From NCBI GenBank assembly GCA_904396155.1, contig CAJFOI010000048.1:30396-94395 (forward strand): 64,000 nt of DNA. The letters are read 5' to 3'. The translations under genes were made by a program, and so were the position numbers. The DNA comes from Candidatus Avispirillum faecium. GTDB lineage: Bacteria > Bacillota > Clostridia > Oscillospirales > CAG-272. The notes below the pieces were generated by a model. The model had not been told where the DNA came from. It ran no database searches and saw only the letters and a program-made list of their open reading frames with translations. Positions 6,845 through 43,780 of the stretch are shown here, in pieces; the first letter of the stretch is position 1; every line of letters begins with the position of its first letter.

Positions 6845-7564
6845 ATGAATGACATGCAAAAAACGCCCCAATTAGACGACCGCATGGCTAAAGCAGCTTC
6901 CCTTGTGCGGGAAGGTGCCACGATCGCCGACGTCGGAACAGATCACGGATACCTGCCTATTTCTTTGCTTCGGGCGGGGAAAATCCGGCGCGCCGCCGCA
7001 TCGGATATACACAGGGGGCCCCTTATGCACGCCATGGCCAATGCAAAAAAGTACGGGGTCGCAGACCAAATCCGCTTTTTTCTTTCAGATGGGCTGCAAA
7101 ACATTCCCCTGCAGGATATGGGAATTACCGATATTGTGATCTGCGGTATGGGGGGAGAGGGGATCGCTCGGATTTTATCAGAGAGCGCGTATGTGCGAAA
7201 TGCAAAAATCAGCCTGATCCTGCAGCCCATGTCAGCAACGGAAAAACTGCGGGTATATCTTGCCGGCGCAGGATTTGCAATCGCGGAGGAACGAATTGCA
7301 GCATCCAAGGGAAAACTGTATCAATGCATTTGTGCACAGTACGACGGCATCCCCAAAAACTGCACCCCCGCAGAACTTCTCCTGGGCAAGCAAATTTTGC
7401 AGCGGGGAGCGGCAGATCCTCTTTTCTCTCCTCTGCTGCAAAAATATATTCAGAAGACGAGACAGGAGTACACAGGAAAGCTGCAGGGGGGCGCTGCAGA
7501 CGGAAAGCAAACGCGCTTCCTTCTGGAAGAACTTCTGCAAATTGCAAAAGACAAAGGCATTTGA
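6845..7564 (+). CDS. trmK: Class I SAM-dependent tRNA (adenine22-N1)-methyltransferase
   Basis: LDDRMAKAASLVREGATIADVGTDHGYLPISLLRAGKIRRAAASDIHRGPL, DIVICGMGGEGIARIL. Confidence 0.85.
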   Translation: MNDMQKTPQLDDRMAKAASLVREGATIADVGTDHGYLPISLLRAGKIRRAAASDIHRGPLMHAMANAKKYGVADQIRFFLSDGLQNIPLQDMGITDIVICGMGGEGIARILSESAYVRNAKISLILQPMSATEKLRVYLAGAGFAIAEERIAASKGKLYQCICAQYDGIPKNCTPAELLLGKQILQRGAADPLFSPLLQKYIQKTRQEYTGKLQGGAADGKQTRFLLEELLQIAKDKGI

Positions 7565-7600
7565 AACACACCGCCGAAAACAGGAGAGGAACAGAAAAAA

Positions 7601-8368
7601 ATGAATGTTTTGCGCTTCTATCTGGAATTGGACAAGCTGTATCCCAAGTCGCTGGCCTGTCCCTGGGACAATGACGGCCTCATGTGCTGCACGGATCCGG
7701 ACGCCCCGGTGCAAAAAGTGCTGGTAGCACTGGATGCCACAAGAAAAGTATTGAGCTACGCTGCTGAAAACGGGTTTGACACAGTGCTGACCCATCACCC
7801 CCTTTTGTTTAAGGGTCCCAAAGCCATTGCCCCCGACACTGCCACCGGCGGACGCATCATCGCCGCGCTGCAAAACAAGATCGCCGTTGTGTCCCTGCAC
7901 ACGCGGCTGGATGCAGGAGCCGGCGGGGTAAATGACTGTCTTGCCGCCGCGCTGGACCTCAAGGGGCCCCTGAACACATTTGGAGATGCGGAAAGTCCCG
8001 CACTGGGACGCATGGGTACAACGGACATCACAGACGGCGCCACCTTTGCCGCACATGTGAAGACCGCTCTGCACGCGCCGGCTGTGAATGCATATCTGTG
8101 CCGCCCAGTAAAGCGTGTCGCCGTCTGCGGGGGAAGCGGAGGAGATCTGGTGCTGCCGGCTCTTACGGCAGGCGCAGACACCATCGTCACCGGTGAATGC
8201 GGATACAACCTGTGCATTGACAGTGCGGATCAGGGGATCAATGTGATCACTGCCGGCCACTTCCACACAGAGCATCCGGTATGCCGGCGGCTGGCACAGC
8301 TGGCAGAAGAGATCGCCGGCGCGCAGACAGAAATTATCTGCAGTGACATGGCGCTGCCGCTTTCCTGA
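7601..8368 (+). CDS. Nif3-like dinuclear metal centre hexameric protein
   Basis: CPWDNDGLMCC..., VLTHHPLLFKGPKAI, VVSLHTRLDAGAGGVNDCLAAALDL, GHFHTEHPVCRRLA. Confidence 0.88.
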   Translation: MNVLRFYLELDKLYPKSLACPWDNDGLMCCTDPDAPVQKVLVALDATRKVLSYAAENGFDTVLTHHPLLFKGPKAIAPDTATGGRIIAALQNKIAVVSLHTRLDAGAGGVNDCLAAALDLKGPLNTFGDAESPALGRMGTTDITDGATFAAHVKTALHAPAVNAYLCRPVKRVAVCGGSGGDLVLPALTAGADTIVTGECGYNLCIDSADQGINVITAGHFHTEHPVCRRLAQLAEEIAGAQTEIICSDMALPLS

Positions 8369-33449: not shown

Positions 33450-33750
33450 AGTATCATGGTCCTTTCCTTTTGGGCTTCCTAAAGCTGTCGAGCAGCTTCT
33501 GGATCATTATACTTGTCCCATGGAAAATTTATGCCTGCCCTTTACAAAACGCTCCCTGCCGCTATTCTACAAAATACGTGCTTTTTTGTCAATATAGAAT
33601 AATACGCCTTTCCCCCTTTTCCTGTCAAACCCTGACGATCTGAAACAGACAAATGCAAACGGTCCGTCTGTGCAGATTGATATGGAAAGAATACATGAAA
33701 TGACAATTTTTCGTTACAATAAGGGCATTACCCCCAAAGGAGGATCTCTT

Positions 33751-34602
33751 ATGATCGAGAAACAATGTACCCTTACCGAGAAAAAAATTGACCGCTACGC
33801 CATATATCTGCGGGAACAGGAACGGGCAGAGCAAACCATTCAAAAATATGTTCGCGATCTCAACGCTCTTCGAAAATATCTGGCAGGGCGCCCCCTGACC
33901 AAGGAGATGCTTCTTCGCTGGAAAGAAGAACTAACTGGCGTATATGCTCCAGCATCCGTAAACACGATGCTCACAGCTGTGAACTGCTTCCTCGCATTTG
34001 CCGGCTGCCGCCAGCTTACTGTTCGCCTGCTGAAAATACAACGATCCCTGTTCTCCGACGAAAAGCGGGAACTGACTCGCGGAGAATATGCCAGACTGGT
34101 CCAAGCCGCCGAAAGGGAGGGCAACAAACGACTGTCTTTGATCATCCAAACCCTCTGCGCCACAGGAATGCGGGTGTCGGAGCTCCGTTTTATCACCGCC
34201 GCCGCCCTCTCCTGCGGCCGTGCAGAAATCACAAACAAAGGCAAGCGACGGGTTGTATTCTTACCGGACAAGCTGCGGCAAACCCTGAAAAAATACCTGC
34301 AAAAACAAAAACGCACTGCCGGAGCAGTGTTCGTTACACGGACAGGAAATCCGCTGGATCGTTCCAATATCTGGCGGGAAATGAAATCCCTGTGCCGCCT
34401 TGCCGGCGTTGCACCGGAAAAAGTGTTTCCCCACAATCTGCGCCACCTTTTTGCGCGAACTTATTATGCTATAGAAAAAGATCTGTCACGTCTGGCAGAT
34501 CTCCTGGGACACTCCAATGTAAACACCACGCGCATTTATACCGCGGAAAGCGGCCGCACCCATGCACGGCATATGGAACGGATGGGGCTCGTTATCACAT
34601 AA
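33751..34602 (+). CDS. Tyrosine recombinase (XerC/D type), predicted DNA invertase for the adjacent switch
   Basis: SAM-like N-domain plus catalytic residues: LCATGMRVSELR, HNLRHLFARTYY, LADLLGHSNVNTTRIYT. The TAA stop (34600-34602) lies inside the left inverted repeat. Confidence 0.88.
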   Translation: MIEKQCTLTEKKIDRYAIYLREQERAEQTIQKYVRDLNALRKYLAGRPLTKEMLLRWKEELTGVYAPASVNTMLTAVNCFLAFAGCRQLTVRLLKIQRSLFSDEKRELTRGEYARLVQAAEREGNKRLSLIIQTLCATGMRVSELRFITAAALSCGRAEITNKGKRRVVFLPDKLRQTLKKYLQKQKRTAGAVFVTRTGNPLDRSNIWREMKSLCRLAGVAPEKVFPHNLRHLFARTYYAIEKDLSRLADLLGHSNVNTTRIYTAESGRTHARHMERMGLVIT

Positions 34603-34618
34603 TTTTCCTTATGTTGTA
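34597..34618 (+). repeat. Left 22-bp inverted repeat of predicted invertible element
   Basis: ACATAATTTTCCTTATGTTGTA, perfect reverse complement of 34844-34865. Confidence 0.93.
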
Positions 34619-34843
34619 ATATTACATATGGTTTATAAAATGTTTTAATTAACTATATCATATTCCAGCGCAAAAAGAAAGTCTTTTTTTATTTTTTGGC
34701 GCAAAAAATCTGACTGGACAATTTTTCTAAAATTGCCCCGTCCTTTTTCACGTTGCAGAAACAGCAGATTAATGTAAAAAAACAAAATGGTTGTCTTTTT
34801 ACCACAGCTATAACATGCGTTTATATGGTGTCTCAGCACAGAC
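34619..34843. other. Predicted 225-bp invertible DNA segment upstream of the pilus operon
   Basis: Bounded by perfect 22-bp inverted repeats with palindromic arms around a 6-nt asymmetric spacer (TTTTCC), next to a tyrosine recombinase. Contains an extended -10 candidate TGATATAGT on the minus strand (TATAGT = 34652-34657). Confidence 0.75.
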
Positions 34844-34865
34844 TACAACATAAGGAAAATTATGT
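34844..34865 (-). repeat. Right 22-bp inverted repeat of predicted invertible element
   Basis: TACAACATAAGGAAAATTATGT; extended, it is TACAACATAA-ggaaaa-TTATGTTGTA with perfect 10-bp arms. Confidence 0.93.
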
Positions 34866-34881
34866 TGTATGTAAGAGGTTC

Positions 34882-37800
34882 ATGCAGATGACACATCGAC
34901 CAAAGTTCCGAAAAGACAAAGCAGGCATGTGTCTATTCAGGCGTATCACGGGCGTCTTTCTGGCCGCAACGCTTCTGTTGCCTGCCGGCGTATATCTGTC
35001 TCCAGGCAACCCGTTCGGTTTCAGCGCCCAGGCGGCTACAGAGGACGATAGCGGTCTGAACACACATGTGATCGATACCATCAGCCCTTCCCATGTAAAA
35101 TTTAACCTGTTTGACTACTGGGTTAATCAAAAAAGCAGCGGTGCAAACGACGGATGGAGCTCACAAGGAGGAATCAACGCCGATCACCCGCTGATCTTTA
35201 CCAACAACGGCTCCGGCTGCGGCGTGTGGAATTGGTGGACCGGTGCACATAATTACGGCACAGTGTCCCGGGGGCAGTACACAGGAATCGTGCAAGGCAC
35301 GCTGGGGAGCGACGGATATCCCCGCCTTGCCATTGGGAACAGCATCAGCGATGTCAATCGCGGCCAGGAATGGATTGAAGAAAACGGTCTATACGGAAAA
35401 ACCCAGGAATCTCTTGCCTATTTGTTTGATCCAGACGTACAAAATGATTTCAAAGATGTTTACGAAAACGTACAGGGACTTGTAAAATACGATGGAAACG
35501 GCGGATATGTTTACGACAGCCACGAAAACTATGCCTTCTTCCGGGAGGGGGCGGCAGGAGAACTGGGAACAAACGGAGAGCCCAGCGCAGGCTGTTTTGA
35601 AGTATACGACAGTTGGGGGCTGAAAGGCAGCTCCTCTACCAACGGTCAGTTTTTTCCCTTTGACGGTCCGGAAGATGTGTTTGTCCAAAACAGTCTTGGA
35701 GAATATGAAACCGATGCCTACGGTGCACTGGTTCCCAACGACAAAAACCCCAACGGAACAGATGCCAGTCAATTCAACCACTACCTGGGCATGTCTATGG
35801 AGGCGGTCTTTCTGCAACCGGAAGGCGGCAAAATTGACGCCGATACGCCCATGTCCTTCACCTTTTCCGGAGACGACGACGTGTGGATATTCATCGACAA
35901 TGTGCTGGTGGCAGACCTGGGCGGTATCCACGATGAGTGCTTTGCCGTCATAGACTTTGAAACCGGTGCGGTATACACCGGCAGAACACCGATCCTTCAA
36001 AATGCGGACGGAACATTTTCCGAAAATATCCCTACACTGCAGGAATTGCGAAATCCCGGGCAGACACGATTCATCTGGTACACCCGCAGCAACAATATTA
36101 ATAAAAACACAAGCGGATACTGGGCCGAATTCTCCGCAGACCATGGGATCAGGATCACCACACTGAAAGAGATTTTTGCATCCGCCGGCTACGATTCACA
36201 TCAGACTTGGGGCGACGAAAGCGGCATGAATGAGAACACCTTTGATCAAAATACCCAGCATGAGCTAAAGATGTTCTACCTGGAGCGCGGCGCAGGCGCT
36301 TCCAATCTGGTGTTGTCCTTTAACATGCTGGCGGTGCCTGCCTCCGGTGTCACCAAGACCGACCAGGACGGCCGCCCGGTGGAGGGCGCGGAGTTTGCCC
36401 TCTGGCCGGCGCAGCTGAGTGACACAGAAAGAGACGAATATGGTCATCCAGCGCCGGTGATTGGTGAAGACGGTCTGTACGTCGCTGATAAGAGTGACGG
36501 TACCCCCATCTGCACGGCGACTACAGACGAAAACGGCCATTTAAGCTTTGTGACGGATAAGCAGAAGATCATCAGCTTTCAGGAACGGGCGCAAAACGGA
36601 GATTTCTACTATGTACTGGAAGAAACACAGCAGCCTGTGGGGTATCGATCCAAAGGAGACATCTCCCTGTATTACAGCATCTACAATGAAAGTTCCAACG
36701 AAGGAGTTCTGCTTTCCTACAACTACTGGCAGACCGGTGCATACGCCCAAGCCAAACTGGACGTCACAATGACACAAAAACTCTACAAATACGAACTGGA
36801 CGCAGACGGTCGCCCTGTAGCCCAAACGCCCCTTGTGCCGAGGGACGAAAACGAAACGGAATATCTGGACGATGGAATTATCTTCGCCGTTCCCATTAAA
36901 CGGATGGACCCGGAAGGTTCACTATACGACGAATCCAATCAGCACGCCCTCTACGGCACGGCCAACACCGGCTGGACCCTAATGAGTGAGCCCATCAGCG
37001 ACAAGGCGTCGGTACTGAAAGCGGCCAGAGAAATGGAACGGGTGATGCGGGAAACCAGACAGACCGGCACCATTCTCGCCGAGCGCAACGCTCGCCAGCT
37101 TTTTCACGTGGAAATTACCAACATCCCCGGTGATGTAAAGTATACCTATCCCTATCTTATGGGGACAGGCAAAGAAGAGGAAAGCCAGTATAACATCGCC
37201 TTTTATTTTGCGCCGGATGCGCAAACACTCAACGAAATTACAGATCCCGAAACACTTGTCCGCATTGGTGCCGCAACGCCGGAAGGAGAAATGTTCCAGC
37301 GGCAGTATGCTTCCCAGTTCTATGTATCCAACACCTTCAACCGCCTGCGCGTGCAAAAGTTAGACAATCACGGCAACCGCCTGGAGGGTGCGGAATTCAG
37401 CATGTATCAAACGTACTCCACATGGCAGCGAAAAGGGTACGTCTGGGATGCAGAAAAAAAGCTTTACCGCAATCCCGATGTGGTAAACGAAGACGGAAGC
37501 CTGAAAGGCAGAGACGAAATCACTGGTACAGTCCCGTGGGACAAAGGAGTGACCAAATCCGGCGACAGTGCCGGAGCGGGAAGCATAGATCTGGATGGGG
37601 CTTTTATCTTTCCAACAGCATTCGATACATATATCTTCGGCGACGCGCATTTGACAAAAGATTATCAAATCCATCCAAACGATACCTCCACCTATATTGA
37701 GGAAGGTGAGTACGTTATTTTGGAGACCGGCGTACCATCGGATGGCTACCTCGTCAACGAGCAGCCGATCGCCGTCACGGTAAATAACGAGGGCGTATTT

Positions 37801-40458
37801 GCCGATGCGGGTGAAGTAAACGACGGTGTGCGGGTAGGCCAGTACGCCGGATGGGTCCTCAACTCCATGACCCAGTTCGCCACGGAAGGTGCAGTGGACG
37901 AAACACTGACCTTCTTAAGCAGCACACTCAAGGTACAAAATGAAGACGGCAGCCTTGCTTCCCCAATGGAGGGAGACATTACCTGGCTCAACAAATACAG
38001 CAACGAGAACAACCGCTATATCTGTCTGGCACAGGACGTTGGCCGCTATGTCACCGATGGACGTAATCTTTATCAGCTCACCGACGAGGGTACTCCGCAG
38101 CTTCACATCCGGCAGAACAGCGGCGTCACCGCCCAGGTCATCCTGCTGGATGGGTCGTATACCTCTTACAGCGGCACGGTGACAGTGAACAAAAGCAGCG
38201 AGGACGGTAATACATATCCTTTACAAGGGATCGCCACGGAAGGCACACTGGGCTTTTTTCTGCGGAAGGCTGGCGAACCCGAAGGGAAACAGACATTGGA
38301 CAGCGTGGTTATCAACGGCGTAACACTTACAGAAAATGTGGACTATCATGTCTATACCCCTCACGTTGAAGACCTGTCGGATTACGAGGATCTTTCCGAC
38401 CTGTTTTCCATTGAAACGTTGGTACAGGTATATGATCAAAGCGTGGGCGATCTGGAAGTCAGCAAGGCAACGGAAGACGTCGTTCCCGGTTCGGACGCGG
38501 ATGAAGAACTCTTTTTCTACCGGGTCTACGGCGTATGTGAGCACGCAACCCGCATTGTGCTGGCCGAGACCGACGAAAACGGAGCTGTCCTTGTGAACGA
38601 AGACGGCACACCGGTGCTAAATACGGAGTTTACCGGCACGCTGAATATACGCCTGCGGGAGAGTACAGGGGGAGAAATTCCTCAAATGACGGCCACCAAT
38701 GTAGCAGTGGATTTCCAAAACGGCGTCGGGCTGGTCTATCTGGAGCCGACCTACGCCGTAGAGCATGTCTACATCCCGGAAAACGAAAGCCATCCGGCTC
38801 ATGGCCTTGTAGGATTAGTAGAAACCCGTATCACTTTGGACGATCCCATCCGTGGTACAGCACAGGAAACCGCCCACCATATTGCCTTTGATATCGAGCT
38901 CCATCATGATATTACGTTTGATGAAGGCGTCGGTATTCTGTACCATGACCCGGCCTTTGTCATTGAAACAGTGAAGATCGACGGTATGACCTACTATGCC
39001 AACCCTGCAGAAGGACAAAAAGGGTTAGAAGCTACCAGCCGATTTAATTCTGCCAATATCGAACAGGTACAAAACCTTTCTGCAAATGCTGCGGTTTCCG
39101 TTACCTTTACCGAGACAGAAAACGGTTCCCTCAGCAGCCCGGACAGGGTAGTGACACAGGATGAGAACCGGAATGTTACGATCGTATCGGATGGCAGCGG
39201 CGGGTACAAACTAAAATACAATCTGCAATCCGAGACAAACGAGCAAGCGGTCGTAGGGCAGTTTGCCCTGTATGCAGGGCAGGAAATACATATTGGGGAT
39301 CTCTCTGGCGGTACGGTTTACTATATCTGTGAATATGCTGCCGGAAGCGGGAACGACGAAGGACGAACCGAACTTCAAAACGAATGGACAACAAAAATCG
39401 ACATTGTTCCCCAAGGTGTTAACGAAGGAACCGAACCAATAGACGACCGCTATGAAACGACAATGCCAGAATACCGGGCGGCGCGGGGTATTATCCGCCC
39501 CAACGCTACCCAAAAGGTGGAATTCACCAATATAGGCCGGGTGGGACAACTTTCCATTTCCAAAACAGTGACGGGAGCACAGGCAACAGAAAGCGATAGA
39601 CAGACAGATTTTTCCTTCACGGTAACTTTGAGAGACAAAGACGGTATGCTGCTGAAAGGCACATATCCCTATACGGGAAGCGCAATAAACGGCGTAGAAA
39701 TTCCTGCGGATGGTACCCTAACGCTCAATAACGGAACAGCGACTTTCACGCTTCGCCACGGCCAGTGCATTACCATATTGGACATTCCCCAAAATGCCAC
39801 CTATGAGGTATCTGAATCTCCAAACTCCAGTTATACCGTCACAGTTCCGGGAGACGCAGACAATGACACAAATCCGGACGGTATCGTCTTGGAAAATGAA
39901 ACGGTGCATGTTGATTTTACCAATATCAAGCGGAGCACATTTGCCTTTACCAAAGTAGCAGCGGAGGATACCGACATGCCGTTGGAGAAAGCCCGCTTCA
40001 CACTCTACTGGCTACAATGCACAGATCCGAAGCACCATGACCACACAGACGATTTGGTGAACGGCAGCACAGACTGCTGGATCCGTTTCAGCTCGGGAAT
40101 CAGTGACCGCCAGGGGAAGGTTTCGTTTTCCCGGTTATACGAAAATTCTCAGTACCGGCTGGTAGAAACCAAAGCTCCGAACGGGTATGTGCTTCCTGCC
40201 GGGCAATGGCGGATCACAACAGACGCAAACGGCCAGATCACCATTGAGGAAGTCTCAAACGGAACCCACAAGCCTCCGGCATTTAAGACAGATGACAACG
40301 GCAATTTACTTTTGCCAAACATGCGGTCGATAGACCTCCCCTCATTTGGCGGATCTGGAACAAATCCGTTTTTGATCGCAGGCACGCTGCTGATGCTGGC
40401 ATCAGCCGGAATGATTCTCGGTAGAAAGTTGTATAAAAAACATACAGCTTCTAAATAA
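34882..40458 (+). CDS. Very large SpaA/Cna-B-domain surface adhesin or pilus tip protein, sortase substrate
   Basis: Signal peptide ([20 protein letters not shown]), fibro-slime/PA14-like [22 protein letters not shown], repeated Cna-B-like [11 protein letters not shown] / [11 protein letters not shown] / [11 protein letters not shown] modules, C-terminal LPSFGGSGT + TM + KLYKKH. The track start at 34753 reads through the inverted repeat and is rejected. Confidence 0.88.
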   Translation: [1858 protein letters not shown]

Positions 40459-40477: not shown

Positions 40478-42073
40478 ATGATGCAAACACACAAAACCCT
40501 ATCCAAGGTATTGGTGGTCTGTTTGACACTGGTGATGATGGTCAGTATGTTTGTCGCCAATACTTCTGCCATCGACGATACCGACAAAGGTACAATTACC
40601 GTAAGCGGCGTAGAAGACGATGTCACCGTCAGTGCCTACCGGCTCATGGATGTGACATACGATTACACGGCCGATCAGCCGGTACAGCCAGTCTATACCT
40701 GGACAAACGCAGTAGCCGGCTGGGTGCGGGAAAACAATCCCACCTATATCGGGGCAGAAAACGACAACAGCGTACAGCCTGCCTTCAGCACGGCACAAAC
40801 AGATGCAATAGCAGCGTTTTATGACGCACTGGCTGCAGCCATCAAAAGCGGAGAGTTGACCGTCCACTCTGTAGACCGTACCGGCAGCGGAGACATAGAA
40901 AATCTCCCTATGGGAAACTACCTCATCCTCATTGAAAACGGGATGCGGGTTTACCGTCCCTCCGCAGTAAATCTGATTCCGGAATGGAACGCGGAAAGCG
41001 AGGTATGGGAAATAACGTCGCCCGCTCAGGTAGAGGTCAAATCCAGTGAGCTGACGATCGAAAAAACGGTCCGGGCACCTGGAACAGAAACCGGCAAGGA
41101 ATCGGACAACGCCAATATCGGAGACACAATAACCTATGATATTCTCGTCGATGTACCCCAGTTTCCGACAAATGCACTGGTAAAAAACTATGCTGTCAGC
41201 GACATTCTTCCCGCCGGACTTACCAGAACGGAGGATCCCATTTTGGTATACGGCGTAAAATCCGGTGAACCGGAAAGTCCGCTGATACAGAATACGCACT
41301 ACACACAGGGAACCACACGTCCCAGCAGCGGCAGTATCTCCACATTTACCCTTACCTTTGATTATACACAGATCCAGACCTATGAAAAAATTCACATCCA
41401 GTACACCGCCACGTTAAACGGCAGTGCCGAACTTGGGGAAACGGGCAATGTCAACACCGCATATTTGGATTACAGCAACAACCCTTACACCGAGGAAAGC
41501 TGGAAATCCCAGGACGACAGTGCCACCATTTATACCTACGGTCTGAACATTGACAAGGTAGACGGCGACGACAACGCGGTCTTCCTCGCAGGCGCTGAAT
41601 TCTCACTTTATACCTCACAGGAGAACGCGGAAGGAAAAAATTCCCCTGTCTTATTCATCCGGGAATCCGAAGGGGTATATCGAAAAGCATTGGAAAATGA
41701 AGAAGGGACGGCCGCACTTACAGTGGGTTCCGGTGAAAATGGAAGTACAAAGGGAAACCTGGTACTCAAGGGGCTGGACGAAACAACCTGGTATCTGGTG
41801 GAAAACCGGGCGCCGGACGGATACAACCTGCTGAATGCTCCGGTATCCATTACAATTACGGACACCAAAGAAAACACACTGGACGGAAAAGTGACCGATG
41901 CCGACATTGTCACCGGCCTTGTACCGCTGACTGTGGAAAATGACAACGGATTCCAGTTGCCCGTCACCGGAGGCATGGGTACCGTTTTGTTTACCGCCGC
42001 AGGTGTGGTATTGATGGGAGCGGGCGCCGTGCTGTTCTTCATCCTTCGCAAAAAGAAAAAAGCAGAGCGCTGA
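40478..42073 (+). CDS. LPXTG-anchored SpaH/EbpB-type major pilin
   Basis: Signal peptide, isopeptide-forming pilin domains (ELTIEKTV, LAGAEFSLYTS), C-terminal LPVTGGMGTVLFTAAGVVLMGAGAVLFFILRKKKKAER. Confidence 0.92.
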   Translation: MMQTHKTLSKVLVVCLTLVMMVSMFVANTSAIDDTDKGTITVSGVEDDVTVSAYRLMDVTYDYTADQPVQPVYTWTNAVAGWVRENNPTYIGAENDNSVQPAFSTAQTDAIAAFYDALAAAIKSGELTVHSVDRTGSGDIENLPMGNYLILIENGMRVYRPSAVNLIPEWNAESEVWEITSPAQVEVKSSELTIEKTVRAPGTETGKESDNANIGDTITYDILVDVPQFPTNALVKNYAVSDILPAGLTRTEDPILVYGVKSGEPESPLIQNTHYTQGTTRPSSGSISTFTLTFDYTQIQTYEKIHIQYTATLNGSAELGETGNVNTAYLDYSNNPYTEESWKSQDDSATIYTYGLNIDKVDGDDNAVFLAGAEFSLYTSQENAEGKNSPVLFIRESEGVYRKALENEEGTAALTVGSGENGSTKGNLVLKGLDETTWYLVENRAPDGYNLLNAPVSITITDTKENTLDGKVTDADIVTGLVPLTVENDNGFQLPVTGGMGTVLFTAAGVVLMGAGAVLFFILRKKKKAER

Positions 42074-42153
42074 ACGAGTAAAACACCGGCGCATTTGGGC
42101 GGGACAACACTGTCCCGCCTCTCCATTTTTCAAATTCACAGGAGAATCATCCC

Positions 42154-43050
42154 ATGAGGCAAAAAAACACAGCCGGCAAAAACAGAGGAAATCCAGCCGT
42201 CACTGTTTTTGCCATTCTGCTTTTTTTGGCCGGCGCTGCGGTGTTTCTGTACCCCACGGTGAGCAACTGGCTGGCGGAGATCCACCAGTCCGGCGTAATA
42301 CAAGCATATGAGACACAGCTGGCCGCCGCAGATGCAGATTTTTATGGGGTGCAGTGGCAGCGTGCACGGGAATACAACGAAAGCCTCGTCGGGAATCCGG
42401 TTCGGGACCCTTTCATCCCCGGCACCGGCTATGCCCTTCCGGAAAACTATCTGGACTGTTTGAATATAAACGGCATCATGGGGTACATTGAAATTCCAAA
42501 AATATCCGTGCGGCTACCCATTTACCATGGAACCAGTGAAGCAGTTCTGGAAAAAGGAGTAGGTCACGTGGAATCCACCGCACTTCCCATTGGAGGCGAT
42601 TTTACCCATGCGGTACTTACCGGCCACCGCGGCCTTCCCAGCGCCGCTTTGTTTACCGATCTGGATCAGCTGAAAATCGGAGATCAGTTTTATATTCACG
42701 TATTGGACCAAATCCTGGCTTATACGGTGGATGAGATCCACACCGTGCTGCCGGATGACACAGAAAAGCTAAAAGCTGTAGAGGGACAGGATCTCATAAC
42801 TCTGATCACCTGCACGCCTTACGGCGTCAACACCCACCGGCTCCTGGTGCGGGGGACGCGCATTCCATATATACCAAAGGAGGCAGATGCATACCGGCAA
42901 ACAGCAGGACTTGTCTCCGTGCTGGGATGGGATGTACAGCTGCAATCTCTCGGCACGGCATCCGGTGGGCTTCTCCTGACGATCATCTTTGTCACCGTCC
43001 TGCTGGTTCGCAGAAGACGCAAAAGAAAGGAGGGACGGCGTGGAACGTAA
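42154..43050 (+). CDS. Class C (pilin-polymerising) sortase
   Basis: ISVRLPIYHGTSEAVLEKGVGHVESTALPIGG, AVLTGHRGLPSAALFTDLDQLKIGD, LITLITCTPYGVNTHRLLVRG. Confidence 0.93.
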   Translation: MRQKNTAGKNRGNPAVTVFAILLFLAGAAVFLYPTVSNWLAEIHQSGVIQAYETQLAAADADFYGVQWQRAREYNESLVGNPVRDPFIPGTGYALPENYLDCLNINGIMGYIEIPKISVRLPIYHGTSEAVLEKGVGHVESTALPIGGDFTHAVLTGHRGLPSAALFTDLDQLKIGDQFYIHVLDQILAYTVDEIHTVLPDDTEKLKAVEGQDLITLITCTPYGVNTHRLLVRGTRIPYIPKEADAYRQTAGLVSVLGWDVQLQSLGTASGGLLLTIIFVTVLLVRRRRKRKEGRRGT

Positions 43051-43780
43051 CGCAAAAAGGAAAAGCCGTTGCCGGCGGCTGACGATCGTCGCTGTCGTAC
43101 TGTCTCTTGCCGGCCTGACCATACTGCTTTTTCCCGCATGCACCGATTTTCTTTACAGGGAAGGCGTGCGGCAACAAAAAGCAAGCTTTATACGGCAAAC
43201 AGAAGAAACTTCGAAAAACACACCGAAAGAATTCGGCACTTCCCTCCCCTTTGAGGAATTGTATCAGGAACTGAAACGCCGCAACGAAACATTGTTTTTA
43301 GAAAAGCAAAAGGAATTGAAGGATCCGTTTTCCTACCAGCAGCCGGATATCGACCTGTCCGAATATGGGCTAAAGGGAGGCATCATCGGGTTTGTCTCCA
43401 TTCCCAAAATGAACGTGGAACTGCCGATTTTGCTGGGTGCCAACATGGAAAACATGCGAGCGGGCGCCGTGCATCTGACGGAAACCTCTTACCCTATCGG
43501 CGGGGAAAATACCAACTGCGTACTGGCGGCTCACCGGGGTGCCAGTCATACAGCTATGTTCCGGGATATTGAAAAACTGGAAATCGGCGACGAAATTTAC
43601 ATTGAAAACTTTCGGCAAACCCTGACCTATCGTGTAGCCCAGCTTCGGATTATTTCTCCCACCGATGTGCAGGATTTGCTGATCCAAGAAGGACGTGATC
43701 TGGTGACGCTAATCACCTGTCATCCTTACCGGCACAATTCCCAGCGGTATGTAGTTTACTGCCAGCGGGTATATCCATAA
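43040..43780 (+). CDS. Second class C sortase (GTG start overlapping the first)
   Basis: MNVELPILLGANMENMRAGAVHLTETSYPIGG, VLAAHRGASHTAMFRDIEKLEIGD, LVTLITCHPYRHNSQRYVVYCQRV. Confidence 0.9.
   Translation: MERNAKRKSRCRRLTIVAVVLSLAGLTILLFPACTDFLYREGVRQQKASFIRQTEETSKNTPKEFGTSLPFEELYQELKRRNETLFLEKQKELKDPFSYQQPDIDLSEYGLKGGIIGFVSIPKMNVELPILLGANMENMRAGAVHLTETSYPIGGENTNCVLAAHRGASHTAMFRDIEKLEIGDEIYIENFRQTLTYRVAQLRIISPTDVQDLLIQEGRDLVTLITCHPYRHNSQRYVVYCQRVYP

Follow-up and report, generated by a model that had tools for sequence, protein, structure and literature searches.

The DNA analysed here, a stretch of 64,000 nucleotides from Candidatus Avispirillum faecium that we call the window, carries a tyrosine recombinase gene just before a set of genes with the content of a sortase pilus operon, and the question is whether the short region between them is a switch that turns the pili on and off. 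We consider it highly probable that the locus is a self-contained phase-variation cassette, in which the recombinase would invert a 225-bp promoter segment that controls the pilus operon. The features concerned are collected in Table 1.

Table 1 Positions of the predicted switch and of the genes on either side of it (positions of the window)
Feature	Positions	Strand	Description
Tyrosine recombinase, presumed invertase	33751..34602	+	283 aa, ATG at 33751; Pfam Phage_integrase (4.7e-29) and SAM-like N domain
Left recombination site	34593..34618	+	26 bp, Xer-like, TATCACATAA-TTTTCC-TTATGTTGTA
Invertible segment proper	34619..34843	.	225 bp between repeats
Candidate promoter	34652..34680	-	TTTCTT-17-TATAGT, extended -10 TG; faces left and away from the pilus genes
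Terminator-like hairpin followed by T5	34712..34748	+	Counterpart hairpin and T-run on the other strand
Right recombination site	34844..34869	+	26 bp, Xer-like, TACAACATAA-GGAAAA-TTATGTTGTA
Shine-Dalgarno-like AAGAGG of adhesin	34873..34878	+	Read from sequence; outside invertible segment and right site
Giant surface adhesin / pilus tip-like protein	34882..40458	+	About 1856 aa; start ATG 34882 or 34888
Major pilin	40478..42073	+	531 aa; SpaH/EbpB-type, isopeptide D2 and SpaA domains, LPVTG anchor
Class C sortase 1	42154..43050	+	NF033745, 278.9 bits (cut-off 160)
Class C sortase 2	42989..43780	+	Open frame, true start probably about 43041; NF033745, 198 bits (cut-off 160)

The inverted repeats at this locus are far beyond chance. 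The two arms (34597-34618 and 34844-34865) are 22 nt each, 100% complementary and 225 nt apart, and the longest inverted repeat in 300 dinucleotide shuffles of positions 33500-36000 had a mean length of 10 nt and a maximum of 16 nt. The first-pass annotation had described perfect 22-bp repeats around 225 bp, located between a tyrosine recombinase and a giant adhesin gene, had read the right copy as a XerC/D-like core and had deduced inversion from the orientation of the spacers; all of this is borne out. The right site is a perfect core, with the arms TACAACATAA and TTATGTTGTA around the 6-nt GGAAAA, and it reaches position 34869, which is 4 bp past the repeat end given earlier, while the left site is imperfect in its outer left arm. 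The two spacers of 6 nt, TTTTCC and GGAAAA, are reverse complements of each other, and recombination between sites with such opposite spacers leads to inversion, not to deletion. The stop codon of the recombinase (TAA, 34600-34602) lies inside the left site, within ACATAA, so that a crossover in the spacer would fall 3' of it and leave the enzyme unchanged. Apart from this locus, the pattern ACATAAN6TTATGT is present in the genome as a single further inverted pair and nowhere else; a second member of the recombinase family lies next to it.

The window recombinase is a two-domain protein for which the nearest NCBIfam models are XerA, XerC and XerD, all with scores below the cut-off; against the XerC and XerD equivalog models it obtains 110-114 bits, where the cut-offs are 330-335. 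Its reading frame is intact, the gene is linked to the sites, and all catalytic residues (R141, K165, H228, R231, H254, Y263) are present and invariant in 11 relatives. We infer that this enzyme acts on the two neighbouring sites. The proximity to XerA, XerC and XerD, together with a core layout that resembles dif, could also mean that it is a housekeeping XerC/XerD protein that resolves chromosome dimers and that the repeats are dif-like sites, but the chance of this is negligible in view of the distance to every Xer cut-off, the better XerD candidate at G000:C35 (209.6 versus 113.6 bits), the comparable weak matches to the window recombinase in most genomes of the genus, and the occurrence of three accessory copies in one genome, each with its own pair of sites.

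The three copies just mentioned are the window recombinase and two further members of the same family in the genome, located at C12 and C22 and 47% identical to it. Each of the three cassettes has its own enzyme and site pair, with TTTTCC as the spacer in the window and TCGGTA and TATGCA in the other two. The family is much larger: a family alignment scan of 85,488 species genomes yielded at least 586 confirmed relatives, 80 of which were kept. Eisenbergiella tayi, Oscillibacter sp. 1-3 and Fournierella massiliensis are cultured relatives that have the cassette. In most loci with enough downstream sequence, an inverted pair of sites begins no more than about 80 bp after the stop codon of the recombinase, and the upstream side, taken as a control, has almost no site pairs. 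When sites were called by scoring the arms and ignoring the spacers, the spacers were inverted in all 56 two-site loci, and only 1 of 1292 background windows contained two sites. An independent set of 28 further loci from the bacterial family, which had not contributed to the motif definition, gave the same picture, with at least one site in 28/28 loci, an inverted pair in 20 of the 24 with room for it, and a direct pair in none. The spacers are diverse between loci (48 distinct ones among 74 loci) and identical within each locus. Recombinases and their sites co-vary, significantly though too weakly to be given weight here (Mantel test; arms r=0.14, p=0.009; spacer r=0.18, p=0.0005). In ten loci (L037, L047, L053, L058, L105, L108, L128, L168, L169 and L178) a third site lies 30-80 bp from another one, in direct orientation and with the same spacer, which could allow small deletions or alternative inversions.

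Pairs of recombination sites next to a tyrosine recombinase are also expected if the enzyme is the integrase of a mobile element that integrates or excises and the repeats serve as its attachment sites. The Xer-like core of the sites would fit this, as would the presence of similar cassettes on IMG/VR contigs and the patchy distribution of the recombinase, which is carried by 51 of the 148 sampled genomes of the bacterial family, or about a third. Yet such an element is very improbable: only about 225 bp separate the sites, the recombinase lies outside the pair, and the geometry for excision, with direct repeats, had to be rejected because direct spacers were found in 0/56 two-site loci, so that excision of the segment is impossible. 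The cassettes on contigs classed as viral in IMG/VR (L128-L135, L142, L143) are either switches carried by prophages or pieces of chromosome called viral. In another case, L118 (G016:C169, a contig of 4 kb) and L049 (Oscillibacter sp. 1-3) have identical recombinases and segments in different genera, as a result of either recent transfer or a mis-binned contig.

If the segment inverts, it is of interest what it carries. In the window, the candidate promoter has an extended -10 element that ends 55 nt from the segment end, which is where the relatives keep their promoter. Its -35 element, TTTCTT, is weak, and by score alone the site is marginal (P=0.054 against shuffles). In the opposite direction, nothing comparable is found at the matching position of the window segment (P=0.62), and a generic sigma-70 scan of the segment gave only weak matches on the plus strand. 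The hairpin in the middle of the segment is more stable than expected on both strands (z -3.5 on the plus strand and -3.7 on the minus strand). Since the promoter-like site faces away from the pilus genes and the hairpin would block read-through from the recombinase gene, the window copy was most likely captured in the OFF state.

The same anatomy recurs in the relatives. In 82% of the cassettes, as compared to 16% in shuffles, the distance between the best promoter-like element and the segment end that it faces is 44-80 nt, and this element points towards the recombinase and away from the cargo in 57 cassettes and towards the cargo in 14; in other words, the same arrangement is found in mirror image. 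Terminator-like hairpins, at the strictest threshold, occur in 67% of the family segments and in 9% of shuffles. These hairpins, and the strong bidirectional one with T-runs in the window, bring up the option that the segment does invert but that control is exerted by a terminator in a read-through transcript, the operon promoter being located upstream, for example that of the recombinase. The weak promoter match in the window would agree with this, and the C. difficile cwpV switch, with its promoter outside the segment, provides a precedent (PMC2784873, PMC5903667). We nevertheless regard terminator control as unlikely, because most cassettes of the family have a good promoter within the segment at a constant position, and because the hairpin of the window, with a T-run on each strand, would terminate transcription in either orientation.

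Evidence for a promoter segment that inverts also comes from sister species. In the loci L122 (G016:C22) and L123 (G001:C87), the recombinase region is colinear at 93% and the downstream region is colinear at 85% over 2 kb, while the orthologous segments in between are reversed relative to each other and 93% identical over 308 bp. As judged from this alignment, the pair is a natural inversion in relatives of the window cassette. In the relatives, contig ends within 400 bp of the recombinase are more frequent downstream (14/38) than upstream (3/35; p=0.005, with the 400-bp bin picked after seeing the data), and such an excess would be expected if both orientations coexist. The second cassette of the genome (L005, G000:C12:145-424) is situated at the very start of its contig, and the assembly may have been broken there at the invertible segment. 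A search for the window segment in either orientation in 148 genomes of the family recovered the window itself and otherwise nothing but short AT-rich matches, and the IMG/VR copies L130 and L131 are identical and in the same orientation. With paired inverted sites 3' of the recombinase across the family, a promoter position that mirrors the orientation, and the inversion between L122 and L123, the invertible switch that was first proposed from the window holds up, and the comparative evidence for a putative invertible promoter is strong.

For the window itself, we infer that the segment flips, that both orientations are present in its population and that flipping alters pilus production. One may object that this copy could be a locked remnant in the window strain, where the sites persist and the segment no longer flips or has lost a working promoter, and the weak -35 element could be a sign of this. 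Such decay is quite unlikely, as the 22-bp repeats have remained perfect and the recombinase has kept its frame and all catalytic residues, both of which would be expected to deteriorate if unused.

The genes after the switch form, by their content, what is to be annotated as a sortase pilus operon, as had been predicted. The adhesin combines fibro-slime, DUF7601 and SpaA domains with an LPSFG-like sorting signal, and it is followed by the LPVTG-anchored pilin of the SpaH/EbpB type and by two class C sortases that score above the cut-off. In the bacterial family, the search for orthologues of the adhesin gave domain-level matches only. Between the pilin gene and the first sortase gene there is a further hairpin, GGCGGGAC-AACACT-GTCCCGCC at 42098-42119, by which sortase expression may be attenuated relative to that of the pilin.

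A working scheme for the switch can be proposed as follows. The recombinase would bind the two 26-bp sites around the 225-bp segment, and recombination at the opposed spacers would invert it, as is probable for the window and shown by comparison for the relatives. Within the segment, the promoter would lie close to one end and face outwards, and the terminator-like hairpin would occupy the middle. In the assembled orientation, the promoter would face the recombinase while the hairpin stops read-through, which would leave the pilus operon OFF; after a flip, the distance from the promoter to the outer end of the right site would be about 55 nt, and the promoter would drive the adhesin-pilin-sortase operon (ON). 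The AAGAGG motif of the adhesin gene lies outside the segment, so that the translation signals are not altered by inversion, and neither this ribosome-binding site nor the reading frame of the recombinase would differ between the two states. A more speculative extension, which we consider rather doubtful, is that the promoter in the OFF state transcribes antisense into the gene of its own recombinase, making the switching rate dependent on orientation and keeping populations mostly OFF, and that this portable switch was repeatedly recruited in front of unrelated operons of Clostridia. Antisense transcription would be most direct in cassettes like that of the window, in which stop codon and left site overlap. 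The ratio of OFF to ON cassettes in assemblies is 57:14 overall, 22:2 where site and stop codon overlap or abut and 35:12 elsewhere, which is a trend only (p=0.12).

The cargo of the cassettes varies, and in this sense the cassette is a modular switch. The first downstream genes that were checked include those for giant SpaA/DUF7601 adhesins (L039, L040), a chemoreceptor, a hybrid histidine kinase, diguanylate cyclases, a BTAD-type activator, an LRR protein, an S-layer/InlB-repeat protein, a dockerin protein, a sugar transferase and an HA-domain helicase. On the recombinase tree, the three cassettes with adhesins fall apart instead of forming one clade (3 changes), and this lack of grouping suggests that cargo has been exchanged between cassettes. 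The third cassette of the genome (L117, G000:C22:12000-31999, recombinase at about 7440-8264) precedes a set of genes for AgrB, a LytTR response regulator and a GHKL kinase, which suggests phase-variable quorum sensing of the Agr type; its promoter scores as OFF. The ON-orientation cassettes L124 and L125, as well as L120, are situated before a helicase gene, with HA domains found in L125, and further genes in L124 and L125 resemble those for surface-polysaccharide synthesis, to judge by the starts of the proteins alone.

Inversion of a promoter in front of a pilus operon is a familiar theme from the fimS element of E. coli, which is inverted by FimB and FimE and where the recombinases are encoded outside the segment, as in the window. 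The fim system involves a chaperone-usher pilus, two recombinases and accessory factors of the host. The two types of pili are unrelated, and in the window there is one recombinase, of which the gene end overlaps the left site. Closer in taxonomic terms are the switches of C. difficile, which also depend on a clostridial tyrosine recombinase, RecV. In the cwpV switch, a pair of 21-bp repeats separated by 195 bp precedes the gene for a giant surface protein, a layout similar to that of the window, but RecV acts on several distant switches, including cwpV and a flagellar one (PMC2784873, PMC5903667). Each cassette of the window type comes with an enzyme and a spacer of its own. The window cassette is probably of the same kind as inverton group 139 of Jin et al. 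2025, a group that, to judge from the text of that paper, comprises 33 invertons, 32 of them in Clostridia, and is linked to the tyrosine-type invertase group 35 (PMC11892184). Examples described there include 26-bp repeats about 205 bp apart in Clostridium sp. D5 and 14-bp repeats about 227 bp apart in Intestinimonas butyriciproducens; members of the group flip in reads, and one differs between mucin carriers and supernatant. The match is one of repeat and segment size, taxon, adjacency of the recombinase and enzyme class, and the main text of the paper makes no mention of sortases or pili. Sortase-dependent pili of another gut commensal, Bifidobacterium breve, do vary between ON and OFF, through replication slippage instead of DNA inversion (PMC9187656), and this was the only case of sortase-pilus phase variation in the literature searched, with none by promoter inversion.

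The window would thus offer a concrete and testable example, from an uncultured gut Clostridium, of sortase pili that are controlled by an inverting promoter. It also provides a rule by which such switches may be found from assembled genomes alone, namely inverted pairs of ACATAA-N6-TTATGT that are about 120-350 bp apart and located just 3' of the stop codon of a recombinase of this family. With cargo that ranges from adhesins, chemoreceptors and c-di-GMP enzymes to polysaccharide and quorum-sensing genes, such functions should often be expressed heterogeneously in gut Clostridia.
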